The notes beneath the pieces were generated by a model. That model saw nothing but the letters and a program-made list of their open reading frames with translations, did not search any database and was not told the origin of the DNA. Made by a program: the position numbers and the translations under genes. A stretch of DNA of 64,000 nucleotides from the NCBI GenBank assembly GCA_029237775.1, contig JAQZBR010000004.1:372001-436000 (forward strand), read 5' to 3'. This stretch comes from Bacteroidota bacterium (GTDB taxonomy: Bacteria; Bacteroidota; Bacteroidia; 2-12-FULL-35-15). This document shows, one piece after another, positions 6,001 through 29,560 of this stretch; the stretch's first letter is position 1; every line of letters starts with the position of its first letter.

Positions 6001-6015
6001 TGGTTCTATAAATAA
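1..6015 (+). CDS. Poly-HAMP hybrid sensor histidine kinase (5' partial)
   Basis: The frame is open from base 1, so the N terminus lies outside the window; residues are numbered from base 1. The visible 2,004 residues hold eleven complete 92-residue HAMP units and a shortened twelfth (to about 1070), a GAF domain (about 1080-1240), a coiled coil, HisKA with phospho-acceptor His1324 in [10 protein letters not shown], an HATPase domain (about 1423-1555) with DTGIGI and GGTGLGLSI boxes, and three receivers with Asp1667, Asp1789 and Asp1935. The HAMP consensus ([31 protein letters not shown]) matches the poly-HAMP region known from fungal group III kinases (Nik1/Os-1). It should autophosphorylate and pass phosphate through its receivers. 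No membrane segment is visible, so it may be cytosolic, but the N terminus is unseen. The stimulus is unknown. Confidence 0.95.
28..3210 (+). repeat. 276-bp tandem repeat array encoding HAMP units
   Basis: Twelve in-frame units begin at 28, 304, 580, 856, 1132, 1408, 1684, 1960, 2236, 2512, 2788 and 3064. The period is exactly 276 bp with no insertion or deletion. Units 2-7 are very close to each other at DNA level, while the last two are clearly diverged. This is a coding repeat within the hybrid kinase and is prone in principle to unit gain or loss and to assembly collapse. Confidence 0.97.
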
Positions 6016-6039
6016 AATTAAAAAAAACATTAATTTTAT

Positions 6040-6079
6040 AACCTGCTCTTCACCTTATAAGTGAAGGGCAGGTTTTATT
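6040..6079 (+). terminator. Rho-independent terminator after hybrid kinase
   Basis: A 14-bp stem (6040-6053 with 6061-6074, one G-U pair) closes a 7-base loop and is followed by TTATT. It lies 24 bases after the kinase stop codon and ends just before the next gene, which rules out the GTG at 6061 as a start for that gene. Confidence 0.8.
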
Positions 6080-6093
6080 ACATTAATAAGGTT

Positions 6094-7383: not shown

Positions 7384-7428
7384 ACAAAGTCGCGGAACAT
7401 CCGCAGCAGTAAAAGTAATAGTAGTAAT

Positions 7429-12992: not shown

Positions 12993-14054
12993 ATGCAGCA
13001 TCCTAAACGTATATTAATTTGTCCGCTCGACTGGGGCCTGGGACATGCTACGCGCTGTATTCCTATTATTCGTGAATTACTTGAAAATGGTTTGCATGTT
13101 GTTATTGCAGGCGAAGGAAGAAGCCTTGAATTGTTAAAAACAGAATTTCCATCTTTAGCATTTATCGAACTTCACGGATACAACATAACATATCCTGAAA
13201 AAGGAAGCATGATATTAAAAATGCTGTTTTCAATTCCGAAACTAATCCATGGAATCAAACAAGAACATCAAGCGATACAGAAAATTGTCATAGAGAATAA
13301 AATTGATGTTGTAATTTCGGACAATCGTTACGGATGTTATGCATCAGGGGTGAAAAACATTTTCGTCACTCACCAGTTAATGATCAAAGCGCCATTTTTA
13401 GAAGGCCTTATTCATAATAAAATCCTTTCATACATAAAATATTTTGATGAATGCTGGATTCCCGATAATGAGACAGCACCATTTCTCTCGGGGGATCTTT
13501 CTCATAAATATAAATTGTCAAATCACGCTTATTTCATCGGGCCTTTATCGCGATTCAGCAAGATCAATGAAGTGAAGAAATTTGATATTACTGTAATTAT
13601 ATCAGGTCCCGAACCACAGCGGACTATCTTTGAAAAGCTTATAATTGCTCAGATCAAAAAGACTGATCTAAAAACATTAATTGTTCAGGGAAAGCCTGAA
13701 GAGAAAGAAGAATTTCAGCGGAAGAAAAATATTTTTGTGATCCCTCACCTGAATTCCAGGGAGCTTGAAAGTGCGATTCTGGCTTCGGATATAGTAATTT
13801 CAAGAAGCGGTTATTCCACGATAATGGATCTTGCCATTCTAAATAAAAAAGCGATCTTCATTCCTACGCCCGGGCAAACAGAACAGGAATATCTTGCAGA
13901 ATATTTAAAGGAGAAAGGTATTGCCTATTTTCAGGAACAATCTAAATTCGACTTAAACGAGGCCTTAAAACAATCTGAAAAATTCACAGGATTTACCGGC
14001 AGCTATAACAGCGGGCTGAAAGCAAAAATAGAATCTATACTTTCTTCAATGTAA
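12993..14054 (+). CDS. MurG-like family 28 glycosyltransferase
   Basis: A 353-residue GT-B type glycosyltransferase. The N-terminal domain has the donor/acceptor loop PLDWGLGHATR (about residues 10-20). The C-terminal domain has ISGPEPQR, then VIPHLNSRELESAILASD and VISRSGYSTIMDLAIL...PTPGQTEQEYLA, the nucleotide-sugar binding pattern of the MurG/GT28 C domain. It resembles archaeal and bacterial MJ1255-like transferases; the substrate cannot be told. Start 12993 is preferred over an upstream non-ATG frame opening because it places ICPLDWGLGH near the N terminus as usual and follows a minus-7-like TACTTTTA at 12971. Its end overlaps the convergent phoR by 20 bases. Confidence 0.82.
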   Translation: MQHPKRILICPLDWGLGHATRCIPIIRELLENGLHVVIAGEGRSLELLKTEFPSLAFIELHGYNITYPEKGSMILKMLFSIPKLIHGIKQEHQAIQKIVIENKIDVVISDNRYGCYASGVKNIFVTHQLMIKAPFLEGLIHNKILSYIKYFDECWIPDNETAPFLSGDLSHKYKLSNHAYFIGPLSRFSKINEVKKFDITVIISGPEPQRTIFEKLIIAQIKKTDLKTLIVQGKPEEKEEFQRKKNIFVIPHLNSRELESAILASDIVISRSGYSTIMDLAILNKKAIFIPTPGQTEQEYLAEYLKEKGIAYFQEQSKFDLNEALKQSEKFTGFTGSYNSGLKAKIESILSSM

Positions 14055-15072
14055 AGGAAAACACCGTCCCTACTCCTTCGGTACTCATCACGTTGATTGT
14101 TTGGTTATGACCTTCAATGATATGCTTTACAATCGCAAGACCGAGGCCTGTTCCTCCCATTTCACGTGACCTGCTTTTATCAACGCGATAAAAACGCTCA
14201 AACAAACGCGGCAGATGTTCTTTAGCTATACCTAAGCCATTATCCGCAACTTCAATAGAGATCTTTTCACCGGCATCATAAAAACGGATCCTTGTTTCAC
14301 CGTATTCCTTTCCGTATTTCACTGAATTAACAACCAGATTCACAAGCACCTGACGGATGCGGAATCTATCGGCATACACAAACATCTGGCGTGAATCATC
14401 CGGCAAAGTGAGGATAATCCCTCTCGCAGTCGCTTTCATTTCCTGTGCTTCACAAACATCTTTAGCAAGTGCAACGATATCGAAGCGCTCGGGTTCTATT
14501 TGTAATTCACCTGTTTCCAGTTGAGAGATGGCTTCAAGATCATCTATAATCGTGATCATTCGGTCGATGCTCTTTTCTGCACGTGCAAGATAATCTCTGT
14601 TTATTGTTTCATCTTCAAGGCCACCGTCAAGCAATGTTAAAACATAACCCTGAATATTAAATATTGGAGTTTTTAATTCGTGGGAAACGTTGCCTAAGAA
14701 TTCCTTCCGATAAACTTCTAACTTTTTCAATCGCTCAATTTCGTTCTTACGATCGTCAGCCCAGGCAAGAACTTCATTATTTAATTTTGTGAGCTCATTA
14801 TTTGTTGTCTCTGCTAAGCTTTGCGGTCTTTCACTTTCAGAGCGGAAATTCTTAACGGTAGCTACCAGGTGGTCGATCTTCTTAAAAACAATAAGGTGTG
14901 CAAAGTAAAGAAGGAGTAAAGACGAAATAAACGAGATCAGGAAAACCATTCCGGCAACTCTTAAATTGATACTTGTGGTGCCGTTGCTAAACGACATCAC
15001 GCAAAAAGAAATAAGCAGCGCGATGCCGGCCGAAATAAGAACAAGTATGGTTTTAAGTGATTGATTCTGCAT
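14035..15072 (-). CDS. phoR: Sensor histidine kinase PhoR
   Basis: A 345-residue membrane kinase. Two membrane segments (about 8-28 and 39-62) enclose only about 10 periplasmic residues, then come a coiled linker, HisKA with His131 in NVSHELKTPIFN, and an HATPase domain with N box, DNGLGI and GGTGLGLAI. The lack of a periplasmic sensor domain is a PhoR feature: PhoR reads phosphate status through the Pst-PhoU complex. It follows the OmpR-type regulator gene by 20 bases on the same strand. The assignment rests on the partner, the pst genes downstream and the Pho boxes; E. coli PhoR also has a PAS domain, which is not obvious here. Confidence 0.85.
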   Translation of the reverse strand: MQNQSLKTILVLISAGIALLISFCVMSFSNGTTSINLRVAGMVFLISFISSLLLLYFAHLIVFKKIDHLVATVKNFRSESERPQSLAETTNNELTKLNNEVLAWADDRKNEIERLKKLEVYRKEFLGNVSHELKTPIFNIQGYVLTLLDGGLEDETINRDYLARAEKSIDRMITIIDDLEAISQLETGELQIEPERFDIVALAKDVCEAQEMKATARGIILTLPDDSRQMFVYADRFRIRQVLVNLVVNSVKYGKEYGETRIRFYDAGEKISIEVADNGLGIAKEHLPRLFERFYRVDKSRSREMGGTGLGLAIVKHIIEGHNQTINVMSTEGVGTVFSFTLKKV

Positions 15073-15092: not shown

Positions 15093-15776
15093 CTAAAACT
15101 CAAATTTATAACCAATGCCTTTCACTGTCCTGATAAAATCTTCACCAAGTTTTTCACGCAATTTTCTAACATGAACATCAATCGTTCTGTCACCCACTAC
15201 CACTTCTCCACCCCACACTCTATCCAGGATCACTTCACGCGTAAATACATTGCCCGGTTTTGATGCAAGCAATGCAAGTAGTTCAAACTCTTTCTTGGGC
15301 AGATTGATCTCTTTTCCATCCTGTACAACAACGTAACGTTCACGATCTATCTTGATCCCACCCATATCCACTTTATCAGTCGCTGATGCACTCGTCCCAC
15401 GTCCCCTTCTGAGAAGAGCCGTGATTCTACTGATAAGAACACGAGGCTTGATCGGCTTATTGATATAATCATCTGCACCCACTTCAAATCCTGCGATCTG
15501 GGAGTAATCTTCACTTCTGGCAGTAAGGAAGGCGATCATGACATCTTTCAACCCGGGTAATTCGCGGATCTCCCTGCATGTTTCAATTCCATCCATATCC
15601 GGCATCATCACATCAAGTATAATAAGATCAGGATTTTCTTTTTTTGCAACTACAATGGCTTCTTTACCGTTGTTGGCCGTGAAAACATTGTATCCTTCCT
15701 TCTTAAGGTTATAGCTTAAAAATTCAAGGATATCCGGCTCATCATCCACCAGTAATATTTTGTGATCGCTATTCAT
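15093..15776 (-). CDS. phoB: Response regulator PhoB (OmpR family)
   Basis: A 227-residue regulator: receiver (1-120) with Asp55 in LIILDVMMPDMDG and Lys in INKPIKP, then a winged-helix DNA-binding domain (about 130-227) with EFELLALLASKPGNVFTRE and DRTIDVHVRKLREKLG. It is expected to bind paired direct repeats spaced 11 bp, which is the spacing seen in the TTAAC boxes of this region, one set of which starts 53 bases upstream of this gene. It forms an operon with phoR. A close paralog lies at 22637-23320. Confidence 0.9.
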   Translation of the reverse strand: MNSDHKILLVDDEPDILEFLSYNLKKEGYNVFTANNGKEAIVVAKKENPDLIILDVMMPDMDGIETCREIRELPGLKDVMIAFLTARSEDYSQIAGFEVGADDYINKPIKPRVLISRITALLRRGRGTSASATDKVDMGGIKIDRERYVVVQDGKEINLPKKEFELLALLASKPGNVFTREVILDRVWGGEVVVGDRTIDVHVRKLREKLGEDFIRTVKGIGYKFEF

Positions 15777-15958: not shown

Positions 15959-18814
15959 ATGAAACTAAAATTCTTTTTTACCCTCCTTGCAATTGCCATA
16001 GTAAAGGTAGCAATTTCTCAAAATTCAGCTATTAAAGGTAAAGTGATTGATGAAAAGACAGGAGAAACATTACCTGGCGCTACAATTATGATTGATGGCT
16101 CAACAACAGGCGGCATTTCGGATCTTGATGGAAATTTCACAATACCGAATGTGTTACCGGGAGTTCACAAACTCGTTTGCAGACTGATCTCCTATAATTC
16201 AAAAATTATAGAAGGAGTAACCGTAAAATCGGGTGAACCCACAATAATTGCCATTTCAATAGGAAGTGCATCCACCGAACTTGGAGTTGTAGAGGTTGTA
16301 ACTACTCTTAGCAGAGAGAGCAATAATTCAATGCTGATCATGCAGAAGAACAGCGCAACTGTTTCTGACGGAATATCGTCCGAGCTGATCAAAAGGACTC
16401 CTGACAAAAGCACAAGTGATGTTTTAAAAAGAGTTTCCGGAGCCAGTATTCAGGATAATAAATTTGCGGTGATCAGAGGATTGAACGATCGGTACAATAC
16501 CGCCTATATAAACGGAGCACCATTGCCAAGTTCTGAATCTGATAAAAAAGCTTTTGCTTTTGACATTTTCCCTGCAAATATGCTCGACAATCTTGTGATA
16601 ATCAAAAGCGCAACTCCTGATCTTCCGGGAGATTTTGCAGGAGGGATCATTCAGATAAATACGAAAAGTATTCCTGAAAAAAATGAACAGACGATCTCAA
16701 TATCTGCCGGATATAATACATTGTCAACGTTTGAGACGTTTAAAACATATAAGGGAGGAAAATACGACTTCATTGGTATGGATGATGGAACAAGAGGAAT
16801 ACCGGATGGCTTATCCACTACGGAGCAATACACCAATGGCTTAACTAATTTAGAAAAAGCTGAGAATGCGAAGCTGATGGCTAATTCATGGGCCTTATCA
16901 GAAAAAAAAGCTTCACCCAATTTAAGCTTTCAGTACAGCATTGCAAGGACAGGCAAACTATTTAAAAGAGAGATCGGCAACCTGTTTGCCATAACTTATA
17001 ATAACAGCTATACGATCAATGAAGAAACGAGAAGGGATTACGAAGAACAATCAACAGGGATTGTTAAGCGCATGGAATTGATTGATACAATATATTCTCA
17101 GAATGTTCTTTCAAGTGCAATGTGGAACGTCACTTATAAGCTCAATGATAATAATAAGTTCAGCGTAAAAAATATTTATAGCATTAACTCTGAAGATAAA
17201 GTAACAATACGTGGAGGAGCCAAGGAATTTGACCAACCTGAGAAATCATGGCAGAAGGCATCACTTAGATGGTTTACGCAAAACAATCTTCTTTCCTCTC
17301 AAATTAAAGGAAACCATCTTTTGCCCAAGTCGAAAATAAAGATCAACTGGACAGGAGGCTTCAGTGATATTGAAAGGAGTATTCCAAATATGAGAAGAAT
17401 GGTTTACGAAAAAGTGGCCTCAAATGAAGAAGATACTGCGCTGCACTACGCAGCGATTGTCCAGACCAGCGGCACTATACCCACAGCTGCAGGTAATATG
17501 TTCTTCTCAAAAACCAATGAGAATATTTACAGCTTTGGTTACGATGCAACTTATCCGCTAGCCATTTCTGTCGTAAAATCTGACCTGAAGATAGGTGGTT
17601 ATCATCAATTCAGGGATCGCTCATTCACTGCAAGGAGCCTGGGTTTTTCGAGATACCGTCAAGGGAGTGCAGTGAAGTTTGACAGCCAGTTGTTATTGTT
17701 ACCTGAAGATGAGATCTTCAGTCCGGAACACATGGGAGTAATGGATAAGCCCGGGCCGTATAATGGTGGATTCAAATTAGACGAGGCAACTAAAACAAGT
17801 GATAGCTACACAGCTTCCTCTCTTCTTCACGCAGGATTTGGGATGATCGACACTAAAGTCTTTGATAAACTGCGGTTGATTGGCGGTGTGCGCATTGAGT
17901 CTTATAATCAACAATTGGAAACCACTATTGCAGGTTCCGACACAGCTTTAAGAATTGATTCAACTGTAACCGATATCTTACCATCAGCAAATATCGTTTA
18001 TTCGTTAACCGAAAAGATAAATATCCGCGCCAGCTATTATAAAACAGTTTCACGGCCCGAATTCAGAGAGCTGGCGCCATTTTTATTTTACGATTTTATC
18101 ACAGACTTCGCCATAAGCGGAAACCAGTTTCTGAAAAGAAGTATTATTGATAATTATGATCTTCGTTTTGAATGGTATCCGGGAGCGGGACAGTTCATCT
18201 CAGTGTCCGGTTTTTATAAAAGCTTTATAAACCCTATTGAACAGGCAAGCAGACCCGATGCAACACGTGAGCTTTATTTTGTAAACGTTCCGAAAGCAAC
18301 AAACATTGGAGCGGAGCTTGAATATCGCGTTAAATTAAGTTCTTTATTCAGAGCTGATTCATCCGAATTATTAAACGCATTAACATTGTTTGCAAACCTT
18401 GCTTATGTTCAATCCAGAGTTGACGTTAGCAATGTCATCGGCTCCGAAGAATCATCACGTCCTTTGCAGGGCCAGTCCCCGGTCATCATAAACGCGGGTT
18501 TACAATACATTGGTTCAGCGGGTACCTCAGTAAGCGCTTCATATAATTATGTTGGCAAGAGGATTTTTATCGTAGGAAATCAGAATGAGCCTGATTACTG
18601 GGAGAATCCAAGGCATTTAGTCGACATACAGCTTTCACAACGAATCATAAAGAACCTGGAGGCGAAAGTGAATATAAAAGACCTGCTCGCTCAAAAATCA
18701 TATTTCTATCAGGACGTAAACAAAACCGGAAAGTTCGAAAGCGCATCCGACAATATAATGATCGCAAGAAAATATGGAACTACCATCTCATTTACTCTTT
18801 CCTACAAGTTTTAA
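15959..18814 (+). CDS. TonB-dependent outer-membrane receptor
   Basis: A 951-residue receptor: signal peptide (about 1-20), carboxypeptidase-like regulatory domain (about 25-110; AIKGKVIDEKTGETLPGATI), plug domain (about 115-235; VLKRVSGASIQDNKFAVIRG, then GDFAGGIIQINTKS) and a long beta-barrel ending in aromatic FTLSYKF. It imports a ligand across the outer membrane using TonB energy. It lies beside phoB behind phased TTAAC boxes and is followed by a T9SS-secreted protein, so a role in uptake of a phosphate source is likely; this is inference. The substrate is unknown and no SusD partner is present. Confidence 0.92.
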   Translation: MKLKFFFTLLAIAIVKVAISQNSAIKGKVIDEKTGETLPGATIMIDGSTTGGISDLDGNFTIPNVLPGVHKLVCRLISYNSKIIEGVTVKSGEPTIIAISIGSASTELGVVEVVTTLSRESNNSMLIMQKNSATVSDGISSELIKRTPDKSTSDVLKRVSGASIQDNKFAVIRGLNDRYNTAYINGAPLPSSESDKKAFAFDIFPANMLDNLVIIKSATPDLPGDFAGGIIQINTKSIPEKNEQTISISAGYNTLSTFETFKTYKGGKYDFIGMDDGTRGIPDGLSTTEQYTNGLTNLEKAENAKLMANSWALSEKKASPNLSFQYSIARTGKLFKREIGNLFAITYNNSYTINEETRRDYEEQSTGIVKRMELIDTIYSQNVLSSAMWNVTYKLNDNNKFSVKNIYSINSEDKVTIRGGAKEFDQPEKSWQKASLRWFTQNNLLSSQIKGNHLLPKSKIKINWTGGFSDIERSIPNMRRMVYEKVASNEEDTALHYAAIVQTSGTIPTAAGNMFFSKTNENIYSFGYDATYPLAISVVKSDLKIGGYHQFRDRSFTARSLGFSRYRQGSAVKFDSQLLLLPEDEIFSPEHMGVMDKPGPYNGGFKLDEATKTSDSYTASSLLHAGFGMIDTKVFDKLRLIGGVRIESYNQQLETTIAGSDTALRIDSTVTDILPSANIVYSLTEKINIRASYYKTVSRPEFRELAPFLFYDFITDFAISGNQFLKRSIIDNYDLRFEWYPGAGQFISVSGFYKSFINPIEQASRPDATRELYFVNVPKATNIGAELEYRVKLSSLFRADSSELLNALTLFANLAYVQSRVDVSNVIGSEESSRPLQGQSPVIINAGLQYIGSAGTSVSASYNYVGKRIFIVGNQNEPDYWENPRHLVDIQLSQRIIKNLEAKVNIKDLLAQKSYFYQDVNKTGKFESASDNIMIARKYGTTISFTLSYKF

Positions 18815-18946: not shown

Positions 18947-20596
18947 ATGAAAAAAATTTACACGCTTGCAATTGCAGGTTTATTCGCGGGAGCTTCAAAT
19001 GCTCAAACCGCATTTTTTACACCTACAACATACAGAGGTGCTTTCCCTGTTACCGACCTCACTCCGGCAACAGACTGGACAAACGGCTGGACAAACTGGA
19101 ATCCTGAAAATACACCTTATGGCAACCCGACTGTTACAGTGAGTTCAAATATCACAACAAATACAACCTGGACCACGGGAACGATCGTATCGCTGCAAAA
19201 CAAAGTTTATGTTAAGAACGGTGCGGTACTAACCATACAACCCGGTGTAATTATCCGTGGCGATCTTGCAACTCAGGGAACTTTGATCATCACAAGGGGC
19301 TCTAAGATAATTGCACAGGGAACATCATCAAACCCAATCATATTTACTTCGGGTGAGGCCGTGGGTGACCGAGCAGAAGGAGATTGGGGAGGAGTAGTAA
19401 TACTTGGTTCAGGAAGATTAAACCAACCCGGAGGGATTGCAAACATCGAAGGAATTGCTGTTTCATCTGATACAGAATATGGCGGATCAAACGATGCTGA
19501 TAGCTCAGGTGTGTTTTCATTCGTCAGAATTGAATTCCCGGGTATTCCTTTAGCTCCTAACAAAGAGATCAACGGACTTACAATGGGTGGAGTTGGATCT
19601 AAAACAGTGATCAATCACGTGCAGGTATCTTTTTCAGGAGATGATTCATTTGAGTGGTTCGGAGGTAAAGTAGACGCAAAATACCTTATTGCTTTCCGCG
19701 GACTTGATGATGATTTCGATACTGATTTTGGTTACAGAGGTCGCGTACAATTTGGCCTTGCTGTTCGCGATGCTGATATGTCAGACGCAGCAGGTGACTC
19801 TAACAGCTTCGAGTCAGACAATGATGCAACAGGGACAGGTGCTTTACCACGCACAAGTCCGATCTTTTCAAACATCACTACAATAGGTCCTAAAAGAAAC
19901 GGGACTGTCACTCTGCCAACAGGTGAAAAATTTGAAAGAGCTTTTTATATCCGCAGAAACTCCGCATTGTCAATCTTTAACTCTATTGCTGCTTCATGGG
20001 AAAAAGGAATTTATGTTAAAGATGCAGGGACAACAGACAATTTCTCAACAAATGATTCGGCTGTTTGCGGCAACAACCTGATTGCTTCAGATATCTCTAA
20101 AGCAATCACTGTTGATGCAAATTCTTCTCAATCATTTTATAGCAGCATCTTTACAAATGATAATAATGACTCTACTAAGACGGTTTCAGGAATTGCCTGG
20201 GTGAATGCTTTCCCTTCATCTTTAAGTGCTGCTGCTGATTACCGCTTGTTGCCTACCTCGGTTGCTGCAACGGGGGCATCATTCTCAGACGCCAAATTCC
20301 AGGGAATGGTTACGGGTATCGCTGAATCGATCCCAGCTGTAAATAAAGTAGGTGTGTATCCGAACCCTGCGACAAACTATGTTACTCTGACGTTCGAACT
20401 TGCTGAATCTTCTAAAGTGATAGCAAATTTGTATGACATTACAGGAAAACTTGTAAGCAATATCCATAGTTCAACTATGAATTCAGGGGTTAACACAATT
20501 GAATTTAATGTAAATGAACTTCCGGCAGGAATTTATTTTGCAAACTTAAACACAGGTTCACTAAACAAGACCATGAAACTTGTAGTTTCTAAATAA
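18947..20596 (+). CDS. T9SS-secreted beta-helix-like protein
   Basis: A 549-residue secreted protein. A signal peptide (about 1-19, ending SNAQ) is followed by a region rich in short beta strands and glycine turns (GNLI-type rungs, VVILGSGRLNQPGG, GLTMGGVGSKTVINHVQVSF), as in right-handed beta-helix proteins. The C terminus (about 470-549; KVGVYPNPATNYVTL, YDITGKLV, LPAGIYFANL, KLVVSK) is a type A T9SS sorting domain, so it is probably secreted or anchored on the cell surface. The core acidic block (SGDDSFEWFGGKVDAKYL, then DDDFDTDFGYRG) may bind metal. It follows the TonB receptor and may share its substrate; the enzymatic role is unknown. Confidence 0.87.
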   Translation: MKKIYTLAIAGLFAGASNAQTAFFTPTTYRGAFPVTDLTPATDWTNGWTNWNPENTPYGNPTVTVSSNITTNTTWTTGTIVSLQNKVYVKNGAVLTIQPGVIIRGDLATQGTLIITRGSKIIAQGTSSNPIIFTSGEAVGDRAEGDWGGVVILGSGRLNQPGGIANIEGIAVSSDTEYGGSNDADSSGVFSFVRIEFPGIPLAPNKEINGLTMGGVGSKTVINHVQVSFSGDDSFEWFGGKVDAKYLIAFRGLDDDFDTDFGYRGRVQFGLAVRDADMSDAAGDSNSFESDNDATGTGALPRTSPIFSNITTIGPKRNGTVTLPTGEKFERAFYIRRNSALSIFNSIAASWEKGIYVKDAGTTDNFSTNDSAVCGNNLIASDISKAITVDANSSQSFYSSIFTNDNNDSTKTVSGIAWVNAFPSSLSAAADYRLLPTSVAATGASFSDAKFQGMVTGIAESIPAVNKVGVYPNPATNYVTLTFELAESSKVIANLYDITGKLVSNIHSSTMNSGVNTIEFNVNELPAGIYFANLNTGSLNKTMKLVVSK

Positions 20597-20655: not shown

Positions 20656-20682
20656 ACCCTGTTTAGCGACTGAAAATGCCAG

Positions 20683-20738
20683 CTAACAATTCCTTAATAT
20701 TCAGCTAATGATTTCTACTTATTCCTATCGTAACTTTA
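20683..20738 (+). promoter_or_regulatory. Pho-type box and minus-7 element
   Basis: CTAAC at 20683, TTAAT at 20694 and CTAAT at 20705 are spaced exactly 11 bp. TAACTTTA at 20731-20738 is a near-consensus minus-7 element 21 bases after the last unit. It would place the lone receiver gene at 20750 under PhoB-type control. Confidence 0.6.
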
Positions 20739-20749
20739 TAATAAAAACA

Positions 20750-21133
20750 ATGGAAACGAAAAGAAAAATATTAATTATAGATGACGAACCGGATATCCTG
20801 GAATTTTTGTCCTATAATTTCAGAAAGAAGGGTTTTAAGGTAATAATTGCGAACAACGGATTCGAAGGTCTTCAAAAAGCGAGATTAGAGAAACCTGAGA
20901 TCATAATATCAGATATTTTAATGCCTCAAATGGACGGCATCGAAATGTGTAAATCAATAAGAAAAGATAAAGAGTTGATCGATATCCCTTTCATCTTTTT
21001 GACTGCAGTGAATGATGATTACAAAGTTCTTTACGCAATGACTTCAGGAGCTGACCAGTTAGCTTCAAAGCCGATACGTTTTGAATACCTGTTGAATATG
21101 GTCAATAATCTGCTCGTAGAAGCAAAGTATTAA
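20750..21133 (+). CDS. Lone receiver, PhoB-receiver-like
   Basis: A 127-residue receiver without output domain: acidic pair IIDDEPD, Asp55 in IIISDILMPQMDG, Thr85 and Lys107 in ASKPIRF, so all phosphorylation residues are present. The first 25 residues (DDEPDILEFLSYN block) are almost the same as PhoB at 15093-15776, which suggests descent from its receiver. Without a DNA-binding domain it could act as a phosphate sink or a connector for PhoR, or signal to the phosphatase encoded nearby. The start at 20750 follows the minus-7 element by 11 bases; the frame opening further upstream overlaps the promoter. Confidence 0.85.
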   Translation: METKRKILIIDDEPDILEFLSYNFRKKGFKVIIANNGFEGLQKARLEKPEIIISDILMPQMDGIEMCKSIRKDKELIDIPFIFLTAVNDDYKVLYAMTSGADQLASKPIRFEYLLNMVNNLLVEAKY

Positions 21134-21156
21134 CATTTAACAAAGATGAAACTGAC

Positions 21157-21178
21157 ACCTGCCAATGCAGGTTTTTTT
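21157..21178 (+). terminator. Rho-independent terminator after lone receiver
   Basis: A 6-bp stem, ACCTGC with GCAGGT, around CAAT, followed by a run of seven T, 23 bases after the receiver stop codon. Confidence 0.85.
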
Positions 21179-21249
21179 ATGTCGAATTCGCTTTCATAAA
21201 ATTCAGCATTCACCACAACTCTATTTTGAGCTTCAGAACTTAAAAATTA

Positions 21250-21621
21250 ATGAAACACATTCTTTTAGTATTTAGCGACCTGAACGAATCAGAATTCATT
21301 TCAACAAATCTGCATGAAAGTGCGTATGAGATCACATGCGTCAGCAATCTGACCCAGGCTACCGAAGCAATCCACAATACTGTTCCCGATTTAATCGTGA
21401 TCAATGATTCTACTCCGGATAATGAAACCTTGAAGTTTATTATAATGCATGAAAAATTAAATATTAAAAGCCTCCTAATAACGGATCAGAAAAATATAAA
21501 CCTTTTCTCTACACTTGCAGTGCAGGGCCAAAACTTCGTAACAACTCATTTCCGACCTAAGCTTTTACTAAGTATGATAAGGGCAATAATGAATGAAGAA
21601 ATCCTCGATTGGGCGGTCTGA
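21250..21621 (+). CDS. Degenerate (pseudo-) receiver protein
   Basis: A 123-residue protein with a receiver-like layout: LLVFSD in place of the acidic pair, DLIVINDSTPDNE in place of the phospho-acceptor loop, SLLITD for the beta-4 Thr, and TTHFRPKLL where the Lys-Pro motif belongs. The phospho-acceptor is Asn52 with Asp53 shifted by one, and the conserved Lys is replaced by His100. It therefore should not be phosphorylated in the usual way. It may act through protein contacts only. It sits between a normal lone receiver and a SpoIIE-type phosphatase, with its stop codon 1 base from that gene's stop (convergent). Confidence 0.7.
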   Translation: MKHILLVFSDLNESEFISTNLHESAYEITCVSNLTQATEAIHNTVPDLIVINDSTPDNETLKFIIMHEKLNIKSLLITDQKNINLFSTLAVQGQNFVTTHFRPKLLLSMIRAIMNEEILDWAV

Positions 21622-21622
21622 A

Positions 21623-22495
21623 CTAAAGTTTAATACCGACAACAAGCATGTCATCAGTCTGCTCAAAATTGTTTTTCCACTCATTTATGATTCGTTCAAG
21701 TTCCAGCTTTTGAGTTTGCATGGAAAATCTCGATGTCTTTAAAAGTGTGTCCCGAAAGTTGGCAGTCATGAACTTTTTATTATTTCTCCCCCCAAACTGA
21801 TCAGCATATCCATCGGTAAACAAATATAATTTGTCTCCCGGTTCATATGTCCTTACGCTCTTTTTATACTCACGATTGTTCTCGAGCTTCAGGCCTCCTA
21901 TCGGATACCGGGAACCATCTATACGGTCCAGAATATTTCTTGAAACATGATATAATGTCCGGAAAGCGCCTGCAAAGGACACTTCCATAAGCTCAGGATC
22001 AATGCAACAGAGACCTATATCCATTCCGTCATTAAGATTTTTACTTTCTTCGAATAGCTCATTTGAATAACCAAAAGCCTTGTTGATCTTATGATCCAAT
22101 CGCTGAAGAATAGATGAAACATTCGTATTCTTTTCCTCGATCACTATCTGATTGAGCAAGCTTATTCCGAGAACAGACATAAAAGCACCGGGAATACCGT
22201 GACCTGTGCAATCCGCAGCCGCCACTATAATTTTTGAATCTATTTTAGTGAACCAATAAAAATCACCGCTGACAATATCCTTAGGTTTAAATAAAATGAA
22301 CGAGTCGTCAAACAAACGGGCCAGATGTTTTTCTTTTAACATCATTCCTTCCTGGATGCGTTTTGCATAAATTATACTCTCATTCAATTCTTCCGTTTTA
22401 GTTGACACTGAACCTTCAAGTAAAATAATTTCTTCTTTTTTAGTTTCAATACTTTTACGCTTTGGTAAGAAAGTTACCTCTTTAATCATATTCAT
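21623..22495 (-). CDS. SpoIIE/PP2C-type serine phosphatase
   Basis: About 290 residues: a short N-terminal coiled region (about 15-60), then a PP2C-SpoIIE catalytic domain. Metal-binding Asp residues lie in GDFYWF, AADCTGHGIPGAFMS, LFTDGYADQFGG and TDDMLVVGIKL. RsbU/SpoIIE-type phosphatases dephosphorylate anti-sigma-factor antagonists and related switch proteins. No sensor domain is attached, and no anti-sigma factor or STAS gene is in the window, so input probably comes from a partner such as a nearby receiver. ATG 22495 is preferred because a minus-7 element lies at 22516-22523; a start at 22531 would precede it. ATG 22489 is also possible. Confidence 0.88.
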   Translation of the reverse strand: MNMIKEVTFLPKRKSIETKKEEIILLEGSVSTKTEELNESIIYAKRIQEGMMLKEKHLARLFDDSFILFKPKDIVSGDFYWFTKIDSKIIVAAADCTGHGIPGAFMSVLGISLLNQIVIEEKNTNVSSILQRLDHKINKAFGYSNELFEESKNLNDGMDIGLCCIDPELMEVSFAGAFRTLYHVSRNILDRIDGSRYPIGGLKLENNREYKKSVRTYEPGDKLYLFTDGYADQFGGRNNKKFMTANFRDTLLKTSRFSMQTQKLELERIINEWKNNFEQTDDMLVVGIKL

Positions 22496-22515
22496 AATAA
22501 CAAGATTTATTAACG

Positions 22516-22523
22516 CAAAATTA
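22516..22523 (-). promoter_or_regulatory. Minus-7 element for the SpoIIE-type phosphatase
   Basis: TAATTTTG on the minus strand, a full TAnnTTTG match, 20 bases before the chosen ATG. No phased TTAAC set was found upstream of it. Confidence 0.55.
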
Positions 22524-22636
22524 GTCATCACACATAACCTGTGAATTTTAAGAAAATAAAGAAATTGTTAAGAGTATCAATTGAAAGAAAGTAATGCAGG
22601 AGCGTCAAAAGAAATCCCAACGCAGATTATGTGAGC

Positions 22637-23320
22637 TTATGTTTCAAGGCTGTAACCAATCCCCTTAATGGTCTTAATATATTTATCTCCGATCTTCTCT
22701 CTCAGTTTTCGGATATGAACATCAATAGTCCTGTTCTTGGAAAATATCTCATACCCCCAGATAAGCTGTGAGATTTCTTTTCTTGTAAAAACTTTCCTTG
22801 GGGATGTGGAAAGTAAAGCCAAAAGTTCAAATTCTTTTCTTGGCAAAACAATCTCTTCTCCATCCCTGAAAATCAAATATCTCTCCCGATCGATGATGAG
22901 ACCTGCCAGCTGCTTTCTGACAGAGATATCTGAAAATGTGATATGACGTTTGAGTAAAGCTTTTAGTCGGCTAATCAGGACTCTCGGCCTTACGGGTTTT
23001 ATTATATAATCGTCTGCACCCGCGTTGAAAGCAGCGATCTGCGAATAATCCTCTTCGCGTTCTGTGTAAAAAACAATGATCAGTTCAGAAAGGTCTTCGA
23101 TCTGTCTTAAGTCCATGCAGACCTCAATCCCATCCATGACAGGCATAAGAACATCAATAAGAATCAGATGCGGAAGTTCAGACTTGGCAATACCAACTAC
23201 TGACTTAGAATTCGATGAAGAAAAAACAGTGAACCCCTCAGCTCTTAAAGCAGAAGTAAGATTATCTAGGATCTGAATATCATTGTCAACGACAAGAATT
23301 TTAAAGCTTGATGGTATCAT
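22637..23320 (-). CDS. Orphan PhoB-like response regulator (OmpR family)
   Basis: A 227-residue paralog of PhoB, identical in length: receiver with Asp56 in LILIDVLMPVMDG, Thr in FYTERE and Lys in IIKPVRPRVL, then a winged helix with EFELLALLSTSPRKVFTRK and NRTIDVHIRKLREKIG. The two proteins are nearly the same in the DYSQIA to GADDYI stretch and in the recognition helix, so they probably read similar DNA boxes. No histidine kinase gene is adjacent. Its own promoter has an 11-bp phased box (23366-23392), which suggests Pho control or autoregulation. Confidence 0.9.
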   Translation of the reverse strand: MIPSSFKILVVDNDIQILDNLTSALRAEGFTVFSSSNSKSVVGIAKSELPHLILIDVLMPVMDGIEVCMDLRQIEDLSELIIVFYTEREEDYSQIAAFNAGADDYIIKPVRPRVLISRLKALLKRHITFSDISVRKQLAGLIIDRERYLIFRDGEEIVLPRKEFELLALLSTSPRKVFTRKEISQLIWGYEIFSKNRTIDVHIRKLREKIGDKYIKTIKGIGYSLET

Positions 23321-23336
23321 TAAAAAAAATATGGTC

Positions 23337-23392
23337 CAAAAGTAACCGTGTGATTTCGCTTTTACATTACGTTAAGATTAACTTTACCTTAG
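23337..23392 (-). promoter_or_regulatory. Pho-type box and minus-7 element
   Basis: On the minus strand, CTAAG (23392-23388), TTAAT (23381-23377) and GTAAT (23370-23366) are spaced exactly 11 bp. TACTTTTG, a full minus-7 consensus, lies at 23344-23337, 21 bases after the last unit. An extra TTAAC at 23375-23371 is out of register. Confidence 0.6.
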
Positions 23393-23470
23393 CAATACTT
23401 GATACCAGCGGTTCAGGTTGTTGTTTTTTCAGCACACCAAATCGTATAGATTTGTATTGATTAATTAGGC

Positions 23471-24327: not shown

Positions 24328-25635
24328 ATGAAACTTACAATCAACCTTATTTTAACATTAATATTAGCTGTATTCCTGTTTCCGGTGAGCACAATCAAGG
24401 CTCAGGAAACTGTGGAAGAACCAATAGATACTCTTGCAAGAAGCATTGCGCAAATAAAAGATGATCTTGCCAAATTAAAGAAACTAAAAATTTCAGGTTA
24501 TGTACAACCGCAATGGCAATATGTGGATTCAGCCGGAGCCCCCTCAGTTGCCGGAGGCGATTTCAGCAATGGCGTAAATAAGATTCAAAACAGATTCATG
24601 ATGCGAAGGGGAAGGATTAAATTTACATACGAGTCTGGAATAGCTACCTATTTAATGAATATTGATGCAACCGAAAACGGAATATTCATGCGTGAAACAT
24701 TTGCAAAGATTACTGACCCCTGGACAAAAAGCTTCAGCTTACTTGCGGGATTACATCAGGTTCAATTTGGCTTTGAGCTTAACCAGTCTTCAAGCACAAG
24801 AGAAACCCCGGAACGTGCAAGAGTAAATCAGACCCTTTTTCCAACCGAACGTGACCTTGGAGCATTCGCGACTTACCAGGCACCAAAGACATCTTTTCTG
24901 AACGGGGTACGCGTTGACCTTGCTGTTATGAACGGTAGCACACGTGTTACAAAAGAATTTGACAGCTACAAAGATGTAAGTGCGAGACTTGCATACGGTA
25001 AGACTTCCAAAAGTGAAAAGATGACATATGCTATCGGAGCATCTTATTATAATGGAGGATATCAGCAAGGTGTGAAAACAGAATATAACTTCAAAACCCT
25101 TGCGAACGGAGAAACAGGTTTCGAAGCAAAAACAGATACGACTAACTTTAAGAAAAAAGCTATCAGGGAATACATGGGAGTCGATCTTCAATTATCCTTC
25201 GACTGGAAGCCGGGTATCACCACCATCAGAGGAGAGTATTTATTTGGTAAGCAGCCTGGAACAGGCTCATCTTCTGCCAGTGCGAGCGCCCAGCTTAAAT
25301 GGACCGACAAATTATACCACCGAAATTTTGATGCTGCATATTTTTACCTTGTTCAGAACATCGGACATACAAAATTCCAGGTGGTTGCAAAATACGATTG
25401 GTATGATCCTAACACAAAGATCTCCGGCCGCAGGATCGGGAAAGCGGGAACAAACACAGGTGTGGGTGATGTACGTTTCGATACTTATGGTTTTGGTTTA
25501 ACTTGTAAGCTAACTGAAAATCTGAAGATCATGACTTACTATGATCTTGTCCAAAATGAAAAAACAGCATTGGCACAGTATGGAACTGATATTAAAGACA
25601 ATGTATTAACAATCAGAATGCAGGCTAAATTCTAA
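24328..25635 (+). CDS. Phosphate-selective porin (OprO/OprP family)
   Basis: A 435-residue outer-membrane porin. A signal peptide (about 1-26, ending IKAQ) precedes a short coiled segment (SIAQIKDDLAKLKKLKIS), then a beta-barrel with the family's first strands (KISGYVQPQWQ, RFMMRRGRIKFTYE) and a C-terminal strand ending in Phe. OprP-type porins pass phosphate and polyphosphate into the periplasm. A Pho-type box upstream and pstS 91 bases downstream support that role; anion selectivity itself cannot be read from the sequence. Confidence 0.9.
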   Translation: MKLTINLILTLILAVFLFPVSTIKAQETVEEPIDTLARSIAQIKDDLAKLKKLKISGYVQPQWQYVDSAGAPSVAGGDFSNGVNKIQNRFMMRRGRIKFTYESGIATYLMNIDATENGIFMRETFAKITDPWTKSFSLLAGLHQVQFGFELNQSSSTRETPERARVNQTLFPTERDLGAFATYQAPKTSFLNGVRVDLAVMNGSTRVTKEFDSYKDVSARLAYGKTSKSEKMTYAIGASYYNGGYQQGVKTEYNFKTLANGETGFEAKTDTTNFKKKAIREYMGVDLQLSFDWKPGITTIRGEYLFGKQPGTGSSSASASAQLKWTDKLYHRNFDAAYFYLVQNIGHTKFQVVAKYDWYDPNTKISGRRIGKAGTNTGVGDVRFDTYGFGLTCKLTENLKIMTYYDLVQNEKTALAQYGTDIKDNVLTIRMQAKF

Positions 25636-25648
25636 ACCACCTAATTAA

Positions 25649-25704
25649 TTAACACCAACACAATTTCAACTTAACATACCCTTAACCCTGCTGATGTAAT
25701 TTTG
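25649..25704 (+). promoter_or_regulatory. Pho-type box and minus-7 element for pstS
   Basis: TTAAC at 25649, 25671 and 25682 lie at 22 and 11 bp spacings, all in one register. TAATTTTG at 25697-25704 is a full minus-7 element 10 bases after the last unit, so the box occupies the minus-33 position, as expected for an activator-dependent promoter. Confidence 0.72.
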
Positions 25705-25726
25705 AAGAAATTATAAAACACTAAAA

Positions 25727-26539
25727 ATGAAAACTCAAACTATATTGCTTGCATTGGCCCTGTACACAGGATCTTGCTTTGCACAAAAATTAAAAGGAAG
25801 TGATACTGTATTACCACTTACGCAGAAGGAAGCAGAAAGCTATATGAAAGCGAACAAGGCAAATAAAATAACAGTAACCGGTGGCGGAAGCGGTGTTGGA
25901 TTGGCTGCTCTTGTGGATAATACTACTGATATTGCAATGTCCTCCAGAAAAATAAAAATGGATGAGAAAATGAAGCTCCAGGATGCGGGTAGAGCTTATA
26001 AAGAAACAATAATAGCTTATGATGCCTTATCCGTAATCGTAAATCCTTCGAATAAAGTTTCTCAGCTGACACGTGAACAGCTTGAAGGTATATTTACCGG
26101 AAAGATCAAAAACTGGAAAGAAGTTGGCGGTGATGACATGCAAATCGTGGCATACTCCCGCGAAACAAGCTCAGGAACATATGAATTCTTCAAAGAACAT
26201 GTATTAAACAAAAAAAATTACGCTTCAAATGTGTTGAATATGCCTGCAACAGGTGCTATCGTTCAGTCTGTAAGTCAGACTAAAGGAGCGATCGGTTATG
26301 TAGGCCTTGCATATTCTGAAGGAAACGTTAAATCTTTAAAAGTGTCTTACGACAAAGGAAAAACATACATAGCTCCATCGATGGCAACAGCGAAGGATAA
26401 AACATATCCTATTGTAAGGCCTTTATATTATTATTACCTCACTTCTTCAGAGAAAATTGTTAAACCTTTTGTAGACTACGTTTTATCTGCAACCGGACAG
26501 AAAATCGTGGAGGATATAGGTTATATTCCTTTGAAATAG
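25727..26539 (+). CDS. pstS: Phosphate ABC transporter substrate-binding protein PstS
   Basis: A 270-residue periplasmic phosphate-binding protein with signal peptide (about 1-19, CFAQ). Phosphate-binding motifs are KGSDTV (about 23-28), GGGSGVGLAAL, IAMSSRKI and YSRETSSGTYEFF. Lobe 2 has LSVIVNPSNK, LTREQLEGIFTGKIKNW and GAIGYVGLAY. It delivers phosphate to PstC-PstA. It has its own Pho-type promoter and terminator, separating high PstS output from pstCAB. Confidence 0.96.
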   Translation: MKTQTILLALALYTGSCFAQKLKGSDTVLPLTQKEAESYMKANKANKITVTGGGSGVGLAALVDNTTDIAMSSRKIKMDEKMKLQDAGRAYKETIIAYDALSVIVNPSNKVSQLTREQLEGIFTGKIKNWKEVGGDDMQIVAYSRETSSGTYEFFKEHVLNKKNYASNVLNMPATGAIVQSVSQTKGAIGYVGLAYSEGNVKSLKVSYDKGKTYIAPSMATAKDKTYPIVRPLYYYYLTSSEKIVKPFVDYVLSATGQKIVEDIGYIPLK

Positions 26540-26560
26540 ATATTGGTTGTTCTTCATCTC

Positions 26561-26592
26561 AAATACCTGCTGAATCCGGCAGGTATTTTTTT
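26561..26592 (+). terminator. Rho-independent terminator after pstS
   Basis: A perfect 10-bp stem, AAATACCTGC with GCAGGTATTT, around 8 bases, followed by a T run. Confidence 0.88.
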
Positions 26593-26608
26593 TGTATCAT
26601 AAATCTGA

Positions 26609-26675
26609 TTAACATTAAGTTAACACAAGGATAACCTTCCATAAACCACTATCCTTTCTAACTAAAATACCTTTG
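26609..26675 (+). promoter_or_regulatory. Pho-type box and minus-7 element for pstCAB-phoU
   Basis: TTAAC at 26609, TTAAC at 26620 and ATAAC at 26631 are spaced exactly 11 bp. TACCTTTG at 26668-26675 is a full minus-7 element. The 32-base gap equals 10 plus two repeat lengths. Confidence 0.72.
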
Positions 26676-26698
26676 CCGCCAACAAACAATGAAAACAA

Positions 26699-27907
26699 TT
26701 GAAGCCCTTTTATAAAAAATTCTCCGAAAAGTTCATCGAAGGACTGCTGATGCTGAGCGGTACTGTTACCAGCCTGGCAGTAGTTCTGATCGTATTTTTT
26801 CTTTTTAAGGAGGGTGTTAGCGTATTCAATCAAGAGGCTGTAGAAGAAGGCTATGTGGTTGCCGTAAATAAAAAGAACAGCGCTGATCATATAAGTTCAG
26901 AAGACCTAAAAAACATCTATGACCAAAAGATCACACACTGGACTCCGATCAATGGGAAACCTGACTCTATTGTGTTGTTCCGTTTGGAAGACATATCGAA
27001 TTTTTACAGCGATGAGCAAATAGGTGAAAATTTTGAAGGACTACCGACATGTCTTAGCAGTGTCGTTGACAGCCTCCCCGATATCATCGCATTCTTTCCG
27101 GAACGTTATCTTGCCAAAAATTTTAAAGGAAAGGTTCTTCAAGTTGACAAGATCAAAATGTCGGAGTTTTTTGGTGGTAAGGAATGGTTTCCCACGGCAC
27201 AACCCTCTGCTCAGTTAGGTGTTATGCCCTTGATCCTGGGAACTCTGTGGGTCAGTCTCGGTGCGATCCTTCTGGCGCTGCCTTTAGGCCTTGCCGCAGC
27301 TGTGTACATGAGTGAGATCGCAAACGAGAAGGTGAGACGCGTTATGAAGCCACTTATAGAGCTTCTTGCAGGAATACCTTCTGTTGTTTATGGGTTCTTC
27401 GGCCTTGTTATCATTGTACCCCTTATTCAAAAGACATTTCAATTACCTGTTGGTGAAACCGGGCTGGCAGGAAGCATTATTCTTGGCATTATGGCCTTGC
27501 CGACTATTATAACAATTTCCGAAGACGCGATGCGTAACACACCAAGGGCGATGAAAGAAGCCAGTCTCGCCCTGGGCGCAAGCAAATGGCAAACAATATA
27601 CAAAGTTGTTGTTCCGTACTCTATTTCCGGAATAACTGCCGGAGCAATTCTAGGCATAGGCCGCGCAATCGGTGAAACCATGGCTGTTTTGATGGTGACA
27701 GGAAATGCAGCAGTGATCCCCCATTCCATTTTACAACCTGTCAGGACAATTCCCGCGACAATTGCAGCCGAATTAGGTGAAGCACCTGCTGGTGGTTTGC
27801 ACTATAAAGCATTGTTTGCGTTAGGCTGTATCCTCTTTCTGATCACACTATTCATTAACCTTACTGTTGAGTTTATTACCGGCAGAAATAAACATCAAAA
27901 ACACTGA
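26699..27907 (+). CDS. pstC: Phosphate ABC transporter permease PstC with PstS-like loop
   Basis: About 402 residues. The first membrane segment (about 13-38) is followed by a periplasmic loop of about 125 residues, then the usual permease core with helices from about residue 175 and the EAA loop ([20 protein letters not shown]). The loop is much longer than in E. coli PstC and resembles lobe 2 of the adjacent PstS: YVVAVNKKN, then SSEDLKNIYDQKITHW, then DIIAFFPERYL and GKVLQV. The only in-frame early start is TTG 26699, since a stop codon lies at 26690-26692. An ATG at 26689 would join the frame if one A of the AAAA run were missing. The gene ends in a TGATG overlap with pstA. Confidence 0.92.
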   Translation: MKPFYKKFSEKFIEGLLMLSGTVTSLAVVLIVFFLFKEGVSVFNQEAVEEGYVVAVNKKNSADHISSEDLKNIYDQKITHWTPINGKPDSIVLFRLEDISNFYSDEQIGENFEGLPTCLSSVVDSLPDIIAFFPERYLAKNFKGKVLQVDKIKMSEFFGGKEWFPTAQPSAQLGVMPLILGTLWVSLGAILLALPLGLAAAVYMSEIANEKVRRVMKPLIELLAGIPSVVYGFFGLVIIVPLIQKTFQLPVGETGLAGSIILGIMALPTIITISEDAMRNTPRAMKEASLALGASKWQTIYKVVVPYSISGITAGAILGIGRAIGETMAVLMVTGNAAVIPHSILQPVRTIPATIAAELGEAPAGGLHYKALFALGCILFLITLFINLTVEFITGRNKHQKH

Positions 27908-28791
27908 TGCAGTTACCTGACGAACATAAACTCGCAAGCTCTAAAAAGCGAAAACAGGCAATAGCATTCTGGATCTTCAGGATTTTCAGCTATGCAATTA
28001 TTGCTATCCTTTTTTCGATCCTGTCCTTCATTACCTATAAAGGATTTTCAGCCATCAGCTGGGGCTTCATCACTCAAATGCCTGAAGAAGGTATGACGAA
28101 AGGCGGAATTTTTCCTGCAATTATCGGGACTTTATATCTGGTTTGCGGAAGTATGCTGTTTGCTTTTCCAATTGGCGTATTAGCTGCCATTTACATGAAT
28201 GAATATGTGAAAGACGGCATTATTAAGAAGATCATCAAACAGATGACTAACAATCTGGCAGGGATTCCTTCTATTGTTTTCGGTCTGTTCGGAATGTCAC
28301 TGTTTGTGAACAAACTCGGATTTGGTGACTCGATCATTGCAGGCTCATTAACACTTGGATTGCTTGCACTTCCTGTCGTGATCAGAACAACTGAAGAAGC
28401 ATTAAAAGCAGTGGATGATACTTTCAGGCAAGCAAGTCTTGGACTTGGAGCCAGCAAATGGCAAACAACAAGCAAAGTAGTTATACCAATAGCTTTTCCG
28501 AATATTATAACAGGATTGATCCTCTCTATCGGAAGGGTTTCCGGAGAAACAGCGCCCATCCTTTTTACAGTAGCAGCCTACTTTTTACCAAAGCTTCCCA
28601 CAAGTATCTTTGACCAGGTAATGGCTCTACCATATCACTTGTACGTAATATCAACAAGTGGAACCAACATTGAAGAATCGCGTCCTGTAGCTTATGGAAC
28701 TGCATTGGTACTCATACTTATAGTTCTCTTCGCTAACCTTCTTGCGAATGCATTAAGGAAGTACTTTGGGAAAAAAGTAAAAATGAATTAG
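27907..28791 (+). CDS. pstA: Phosphate ABC transporter permease PstA
   Basis: A 294-residue inner-membrane permease with six predicted segments, the first at about 22-45. The EAA loop reads [21 protein letters not shown], cut short here to its core. PstA pairs with PstC to form the channel. It overlaps the pstC stop codon by one base (TGATG), so translational coupling is likely. Length and layout are normal, without the extra loop seen in PstC. Confidence 0.95.
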
Positions 28792-28807
28792 AATCAAAGA
28801 TCACAAA

Positions 28808-29560
28808 ATGAATAAAATAGAATCGAGGAATGTTGATTTTTTCTATGGCTCTTCACAAGCTTTAAAGAACATCAATATTGCCATTAAGCCGAACACAGTA
28901 ACTGCCCTCATCGGGCCTTCAGGCTGCGGAAAATCTACCTACCTGCGTTTATTCAACCGCATGAATGACCTCATTGATAATACAAGGATTTCGGGAACCG
29001 TGATGATCGATGATCAGGATATTTATGCAAAGGGAGTGAATGTAGACAGTCTCAGAAAAAAGGTGGGTATGGTTTTTCAAAAGCCCAATCCATTTCCTAA
29101 AACAATTTTCGAAAATGTTGCGTATGGATTGAGAGTAAATGGGATAACGGATAAGAAATTTATAACGGAACGGGTGGAAACATCCATTAAACAAGTGGCG
29201 CTGTGGGACGAGGTAAAAGACAAATTAAAAAAATCGGCATTTGAATTATCCGGTGGGCAACAGCAGCGCTTATGCATTGCGCGTGCATTGGCAATTCAAC
29301 CTTCAATAATTCTGATGGATGAGCCCACTTCGGCCCTGGATCCTATCTCAACAGCCAAGATCGAAGCGCTGATCTATGAATTAAAAAAGGAATACACGAT
29401 TGTGATCGTAACACACAACATGCAGCAGGCGGGACGTGTCAGCGATACAACTGCGTTCTTTTATATGGGAGAATTGATTGAGTATGACAATACAAAAACT
29501 CTTTTCACGAATCCTAAAATAGAACGGACACAGAATTATATTACTGGCCGATTCGGATAA
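28808..29560 (+). CDS. pstB: Phosphate ABC transporter ATP-binding protein PstB
   Basis: A 250-residue ATPase energising PstCA. Walker A is GPSGCGKST (36-44), the ABC signature is LSGGQQQR, Walker B is [11 protein letters not shown], and the switch His is in [13 protein letters not shown]. The Q-loop segment reads [16 protein letters not shown], the standard PstB form. It starts 16 bases after pstA. Confidence 0.97.

Follow-up and report, generated by a model that had tools for sequence, protein, structure and literature searches.

What do four regulator genes do in the middle of a phosphate-starvation (Pho) locus? The question is raised by a stretch of 64,000 nucleotides of a Bacteroidota genome (the window; GenBank assembly GCA_029237775.1, contig JAQZBR010000004.1, positions 372,001 to 436,000; coordinates below are those of the window), in which open reading frames (ORFs) for a single-domain receiver (REC1; 20750..21133, + strand), an Asp-less pseudo-receiver with Asn52 in place of the phospho-Asp (REC2; 21250..21621, +), a sensorless SpoIIE/PP2C-type phosphatase (SpoIIE; 21623..22495, -), and a PhoB paralog with a predicted pseudo-receiver (PhoB2; 22637..23320, -) lie between the genes for a TonB-dependent receptor (TBDR) and a secreted protein of the type IX secretion system (T9SS) and those for a porin and PstSCAB. 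The original prediction, made from the letters of the window, had described a four-gene cluster between secretion genes and pst, and the ORFs were indeed found there. It had also proposed a feedback layer on the sensor kinase PhoR and its response regulator PhoB, and at the level of sequence this idea, with REC1 as the likely sink, was supported. Our reading is that REC1 and PhoB2 may constitute such a layer, which the Pho response would itself induce, and we put its probability at roughly 0.4.

The regulatory side of this reading was assessed with a Pho-box model (aaTTAACATTAacTTAACATaag, a direct repeat with an 11-bp period) trained on the regions upstream of pstS, the porin gene, pitAcc, pstC, and TBDR and scored against a background of 389 unrelated upstream regions. 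Because these genes formed the training set, their own high scores (for TBDR, 10/10 regions over the 95th percentile of the background) are not independent evidence. Phased Pho-type boxes had been claimed for two of the four genes and were recovered at REC1 and PhoB2, in both cases about 70 bp upstream: three 11-bp Pho-box-like repeats (AGCTAACAATT-CCTTAATATTC-AGCTAATGATTT) at 20681..20714 (+) for the former, and a conserved three-unit element (CTAAGGTAAA-GTTAATCTTAA-CGTAATGTAAA) at 23361..23392 (-) for the latter. The best site upstream of PhoB2 scored 15.6 bits (+ strand, 23376-23398), and 70% of the PhoB2 upstream regions exceeded the background 95th percentile (P = 6e-14, a value that, like all the others here, is optimistic since the genomes are related); beyond the genus, PhoB2 sites scored 10-17 bits. 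The REC1 upstream regions were likewise enriched for the box (P = 5e-8), and in 17/18 genomes the best forward site was 60-80 bp upstream of the gene. It is because of this conserved position in relatives that we assign a box to REC1, the site in the window itself being weak. No conserved Pho box was seen upstream of REC2 (10% of regions over the background 95th percentile, P = 0.28) or of SpoIIE (1/8, i.e., 12%, P = 0.025). Some REC1 and PhoB upstream regions overlap in a shared intergenic region, which blurs the identity of the gene served. Judged by a conserved upstream Pho box, REC1 and PhoB2 are predicted members of the Pho regulon, and REC2 and SpoIIE are not.

PhoB2 has the architecture of the OmpR/PhoB family, a receiver followed by a winged-helix Trans_reg_C domain, both Pfam domains being above the cut-off. 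Its identity to PhoB is 53%, and in the window it has no adjoining histidine kinase gene, in agreement with its earlier description as a kinase-less PhoB paralog; that description missed its pseudo-receiver nature. The PhoB2 proteins formed a single clade in the tree (support 100/99). When they were compared by segment with the PhoB encoded in the same genome (17 genomes, as for REC1 below), the identity was 32% in the alpha1 docking helix, 74% in alpha4, and 86% in beta5. Among the PhoB2 proteins themselves the docking helix was 45% identical. The recognition helix, with R193, H198, and R203 kept, was 91% identical between PhoB and PhoB2 and 90% within the PhoB2 family. The contact of a response regulator with its kinase involves alpha1 together with the beta5-alpha5 loop (PMC5231405), and dimers of OmpR-family regulators form across alpha4-beta5-alpha5 (PMC12632262); PhoB2 appears to have kept the dimer face and the DNA-recognition helix and to have lost the docking helix, mirroring REC1. 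The active site has changed as well. All five of its residues were present in 26/26 PhoB copies of the genus, whereas the second acidic residue of PhoB2 (DD2, Mg-binding, D10 in Escherichia coli) had a non-acidic replacement in each of the 27 genus copies that could be read (Asn in the window) and the phospho-Asp was Asp in 17/28 copies, Glu in 11/28, and no other residue in any, with at least five Asp-to-Glu changes on the tree. By the definition given in PMC12632262, PhoB2 is a pseudo-receiver. Since the docking helix varies freely and the Mg site is gone, the earlier proposal that PhoR phosphorylates the PhoB paralog is unsupported, and we consider PhoB2 an unlikely second target of PhoR.

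On whether a PhoB2 bound to DNA would activate or block, the sigma-contact loop gives some evidence; in this loop the substitutions W184R, G185R, V190M, and D192G abolish activation by E. coli PhoB (PMC3973317). Position 190 was V in 26/26 PhoB proteins of the genus and in 0/28 PhoB2 proteins, position 192 was D in 26/26 and N in 28/28, respectively, and position 177 (E in E. coli) was acidic in 26/26 PhoB proteins and K in 24/28 PhoB2 proteins. With the loop so altered, PhoB2 would most likely fill the boxes without PhoB-like activation, as a brake or retuner, and a brake seems more likely than a booster. The opposite view, that PhoB2 is a constitutively active, positive-feedback activator which prolongs or takes over Pho expression, or switches on only some of the promoters via another contact with RNA polymerase, is the strongest rival, possible though on balance doubtful. 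The loss of D10 and the repeated change of Asp to Glu resemble the E. coli protein of PDB entry 2jb9 ("PhoB response regulator receiver domain constitutively-active double mutant D10A and D53E"). Moreover, in the CmrRST system of Clostridioides difficile, CmrR activates its own operon, cmrRST, and the pseudo-receiver CmrT is active (PMC12632262, PMC12548384); another contact has been proposed for CmrT under CmrR. The loop is 72% conserved within the PhoB2 family, so the contact may be changed rather than lost. It is the replacement of V190 and D192, both needed for activation in E. coli, together with the charge reversal of the acidic patch in most copies, that speaks against an activator.

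REC1 consists of a receiver domain only (Response_reg, residues 7-118 of 127). The phosphorylation-site residues DD, D, T, and K were kept in nearly all of its 19 orthologs, the degenerate exceptions being those of G021 (Asp to Ala) and G008. An alternative ATG at 20708 would add 14 amino acids (aa), and most orthologs use the start matching 20750. The lone receiver had been taken as a near-copy of the PhoB N terminus; the identity is 46% over 126 aa, and near-identity is confined to the first stretch, up to the end of helix 1 (DDEPDILEFLSYN), which rules out an almost exact PhoB duplicate. Against the PhoB of the same genome, REC1 was 47% identical overall, 78% in the beta1-alpha1 loop plus helix alpha1 (DILEFLSYN), 33% in the beta5-alpha5 loop plus alpha5, and 13% in alpha4. 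Within the REC1 family, helix 1 was 88% identical versus about 50% in beta2-alpha2 and alpha3. These figures indicate a protein in which the kinase-docking helix of PhoB was kept, the dimer face was lost, and an output domain is missing, and which is a likely phosphate sink for PhoR, the measured basis being the conservation of the docking helix.

A different role for REC1, the relay of phosphate from PhoR to another target such as the SpoIIE phosphatase or a hybrid kinase, would suit its intact phosphorylation site, its own conserved alpha4 surface (DDYKVLYAM), and the proximity of SpoIIE in several genomes. We regard this role as unlikely: only 4/19 REC1 genomes (G000, G001, G033, and G035) have the SpoIIE ortholog, and neither a REC1-SpoIIE fusion nor an operon shared by the two was seen.

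The feedback on PhoR-PhoB that we favour would proceed in three steps. In phosphate starvation, phosphorylated PhoB should raise the levels of REC1 and PhoB2, as expected from the conserved Pho boxes at both genes. REC1, with a PhoB-like docking helix and a phosphorylation site and without a dimer face or a DNA-binding domain, would then compete with PhoB for PhoR, either as a phosphate sink or as a kinase inhibitor. PhoB2, independent of PhoR, would dimerise via its alpha4-beta5-alpha5 face, alone or with PhoB, and occupy the same Pho boxes through its almost identical recognition helix without being phosphorylated. REC2 and SpoIIE would be linked accessories, the former perhaps a binding partner in the circuit and the latter perhaps acting on a phospho-Ser/Thr partner-switch protein; the mechanisms of these two are a guess. 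An extended version of this scheme is a self-induced brake with two arms, in which the functions of PhoB have been split so that REC1 blocks PhoR and PhoB2 blocks the boxes, REC2 and the PP2C phosphatase do the tuning, and PhoB2 has become phospho-free repeatedly; so complete a picture we put forward only tentatively, as possible but less likely than not.

Several observations weigh against a feedback layer made of REC1 and PhoB2. The REC1 site in the window scores 6.4 bits, about the 90th percentile of the background, and the alpha5 region of REC1 is unlike that of PhoB, so its docking may be weaker. In the four PhoB2 copies beyond the genus the five receiver residues are all present, and the older form may therefore have been a normal phosphorylated regulator. 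Bacteroidota primary sigma factors differ from sigma70, and Asn192 also occurs in 2/12 ordinary PhoB proteins beyond the genus, so the loop changes are no proof of lost activation. R200 has disappeared from 7/28 PhoB2 proteins, with a possible effect on DNA binding. Finally, the two genes are not interdependent, PhoB2 being present in about 17/19 REC1 genomes and also in 11/17 others.

The phospho-Asp retained in 17/28 genus copies of PhoB2 and the whole active site of the four outside copies would fit a PhoB2 that serves another kinase or small-molecule phosphate donors and has an independent second regulon. This we hold to be unlikely, as the docking helix is only 45% identical within PhoB2, the Mg-binding Asp is lost in all readable genus copies, the recognition helix is unchanged, and the position of the gene is Pho-linked.

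Recurrence of the genes was determined in 36 genomes of the genus, which is the sole representative of its family and order in the sample. REC1 orthologs were present in 19/36 genomes (60-80% identity), PhoB2 in 24/36, with four divergent copies in addition, the SpoIIE ortholog in 9/36 (at least 352 bits, the next paralog scoring 248), and REC2 in 8/36 (38-42% identity), with weaker REC2 relatives elsewhere. Co-occurrence in other genomes, on which the original prediction had staked itself, was thus observed: many genomes of the genus carry the orthologs at their Pho loci, and in other families the same holds for PhoB2 and REC1-like genes. The genome has 88 receiver and 44 SpoIIE domains; domains of these types are common, yet the specific orthologs recur at Pho loci, so the cluster is not due to chance. 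On maps of 60 stretches the order phoR-phoB / TBDR-T9SS protein-REC1-REC2 / SpoIIE-PhoB2 / porin-pst was kept wholly or partly in relatives: G001 has SpoIIE-REC2-REC1-T9SS protein-TBDR-PhoB-PhoR, G035 has the whole set except REC2, in G015 SpoIIE-PhoB2 adjoins porin-pst, and in G025 SpoIIE adjoins PhoR. Beyond the genus, PhoB2 adjoins phoRB in G040 and G122 (one family) and in G110 (another), and a REC1-like gene lies near PhoR in G056 and near porin-pst in G168. Among 395 genomes of the class, only two outside the genus had a REC1-like protein and four a PhoB2-like one above the cut-offs, which were so strict that weaker relatives may have been missed. The best 80 contig loci of a wider search held one REC1 ortholog, of the same genus (L193), and at the PhoB loci examined in named Flavobacterium, Chryseobacterium, and Tenacibaculum there was no REC1, REC2, or PhoB2. 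The four genes are not one inherited set; the gains and losses of REC1 have been independent of those of PhoB2, and the distribution of REC2 and SpoIIE is even patchier. In a Bacteroidales record (L215:4922-6550), two adjacent PhoB-like regulators stand by a TBDR/T9SS pair and fall outside the PhoB2 clade. As to habitat, "lake-type" is a candidate label only, which we take from the naming series of one metagenome-assembled genome of the genus, RH-23may17-678.

That the genes are mere bystanders, Pho-regulated paralogs which play no part in Pho control and are drifting to loss in a genome rich in receivers, would agree with their patchy presence, the degenerate REC1 copies, the internal stop in the SpoIIE copy of G033, and the 88 receivers, but is unlikely to be right given the selective conservation of REC1 helix 1 and the PhoB2 recognition helix, the repeated change of Asp to Glu only, and the boxes and linkage conserved across families.

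REC2 had been described as a receiver without the phospho-Asp and Lys. Both are absent in this genome; among the orthologs the loss of Asp is general (Asn in 8/8), while the Lys is kept in 6/8. Pfam barely detects the receiver (E = 0.017); the AlphaFold model has a predicted local distance difference test (pLDDT) score of 82.5, and its best PDB matches are OmpR/PhoB-type receivers (template-modelling score 0.79), so that REC2 has the predicted fold of a receiver whose phospho-Asp is gone. The orthologs share an RPK-LLS-IR stretch and a C-terminal Trp, and degraded junk was ruled out in favour of a conserved Asp-less family, limited to the genus in the sample searched. In G029 (L126:6159-9125), exopolyphosphatase and polyphosphate kinase genes immediately adjoin REC2.

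For SpoIIE (start codon ATG at 22495, or possibly GTG at 22531), the claim of a sensorless phosphatase was borne out, Pfam detecting a SpoIIE domain only (PF07228, E = 4e-16), with the catalytic and metal-binding motifs DCTGHG, DGMD, DG, and TDD intact. The phosphatase had further been cast as an output of the Pho response; it is linked physically, with orthologs at a Pho locus in 7/9 genomes, and has no Pho box, which leaves that role unsupported. No partner-switching set (STAS antagonist, RsbW-type kinase) was seen in the locus, and a small protein at 41314-41697, considered as a STAS candidate, matched no Pfam family. Three stand-alone RsbW-like anti-sigma-type kinases elsewhere in the genome (G000:C12:72527; G000:C11:175675 and 176344) make a partner-switch target for SpoIIE possible. 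In relatives, metallophosphoesterase and glycosyltransferase genes stand beside the short SpoIIE or REC1 (L121:8678-11939 in G035, L162:4812-8115 in G022, and L164:6773-8718 in G018), joined in G035 and G022 by a GH1 glycosidase; this grouping is reminiscent of the PlcP-type remodelling of lipids when phosphate is limiting. Near REC2-like genes in G021 (L158:1487-3741) and G018 (L164:8694-12625) lies a different short SpoIIE (284-286 aa, 37% identical), as though a non-orthologous phosphatase had filled the same place.

The surroundings are those of a Pho locus. PhoR (14035..15072, -; HisKA and HATPase_c; orthologs 65-79% identical adjoin PhoB in relatives) and the canonical OmpR-family regulator PhoB (15093..15776, -; Response_reg and Trans_reg_C) are followed by the TBDR gene (15959-18814, +) and that of the T9SS-sorted secreted protein (18947-20596, +), a conserved Pho-locus pair identified by Pfam and by its synteny with phoRB, both in relatives and in named isolates. 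The porin gene and pstS-C-A-B (24328..29560, +) are other members of the Pho regulon, with Pho boxes in front of the porin gene, pstS, and pstC. The base cluster comprises a glycosyltransferase, PhoR, PhoB, TBDR, the secreted protein, and the porin, and the four regulator genes are an addition to it. A single operon of the four was ruled out by the use of both strands, a terminator-like hairpin with a T-run between REC1 and REC2 (21157..21179, stem 21157-21172, +; such sites numbered 3 against 1.8 expected by chance), and the restriction of boxes to REC1 and PhoB2. A carbonic anhydrase gene is divergent from PhoB2 and shares its upstream region; in relatives (L120:3231-12219 in G001, L122 in G035, and L147 in G027), genes for a SulP-like transporter, carbonic anhydrases, and the inorganic carbon pump DabA/DabB lie between PhoB2 and pst/pit, and a link between phosphate and carbon uptake is possible. 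Window positions 28-11121 encode a very large multi-receiver hybrid kinase, then a receiver-kinase and a CheB/CheR-type kinase; this group adjoins phoRB in G007 and, in part, in G014.

A feedback layer of this kind might explain how the Pho response is kept in check in some Bacteroidota. The switching of pseudo-receivers has been called a major unknown (PMC12632262), and PhoB2 offers a natural series, from an intact site beyond the genus through the genus-wide loss of the Mg site to the replacement of phospho-Asp by Glu at several points of the tree, beside an unchanged PhoB and with the recognition helix conserved, which makes the transition from a phosphorylated to a phospho-free regulator testable in one well-understood pathway.

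Among known systems, the PhoBR operon of Flavobacterium johnsoniae (Fjoh_0541-0549), strongly induced on phosphate depletion, has, in the part of the account available to us, the same PhoR-PhoB, TBDR, secreted or lipoprotein partner, OprP-like porin, and glycosyltransferase, and the four regulator genes are not among the genes listed there (PMC8115612). CmrRST likewise combines canonical and pseudo-receiver OmpR-family regulators, is autoregulated, and yields heterodimers in pull-downs (PMC12548384, PMC12632262), but it is one operon with a kinase, composed of unrelated genes and without a phosphate function, and the DNA site of CmrT is unknown, whereas PhoB2 keeps the recognition helix of PhoB. 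Osp of Rhodobacter sphaeroides (PMC9430884) is, like REC1, a single-domain receiver, transcribed by the very system that it inhibits and thus exerting negative feedback on a kinase; it differs in that its target is the hybrid kinase CckA, it is not PhoB-like, and its inhibition is experimental, REC1 being known from sequence. The atypical OmpR/PhoB regulators ChxR and HP1043 have degenerate receivers, dimerise, and bind DNA without phosphorylation, but are not described in PMC3960148 as self-induced paralogs that stand beside an intact two-component system and share its recognition helix. We found no paper describing this gene set on PhoR-PhoB in the literature searched, most subscription papers being outside its coverage. 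The types of component are known, as Osp-like single-domain receivers, CmrT-like pseudo-receivers, and PP2C phosphatases; it is for their combination on PhoR-PhoB that the papers searched gave no precedent.

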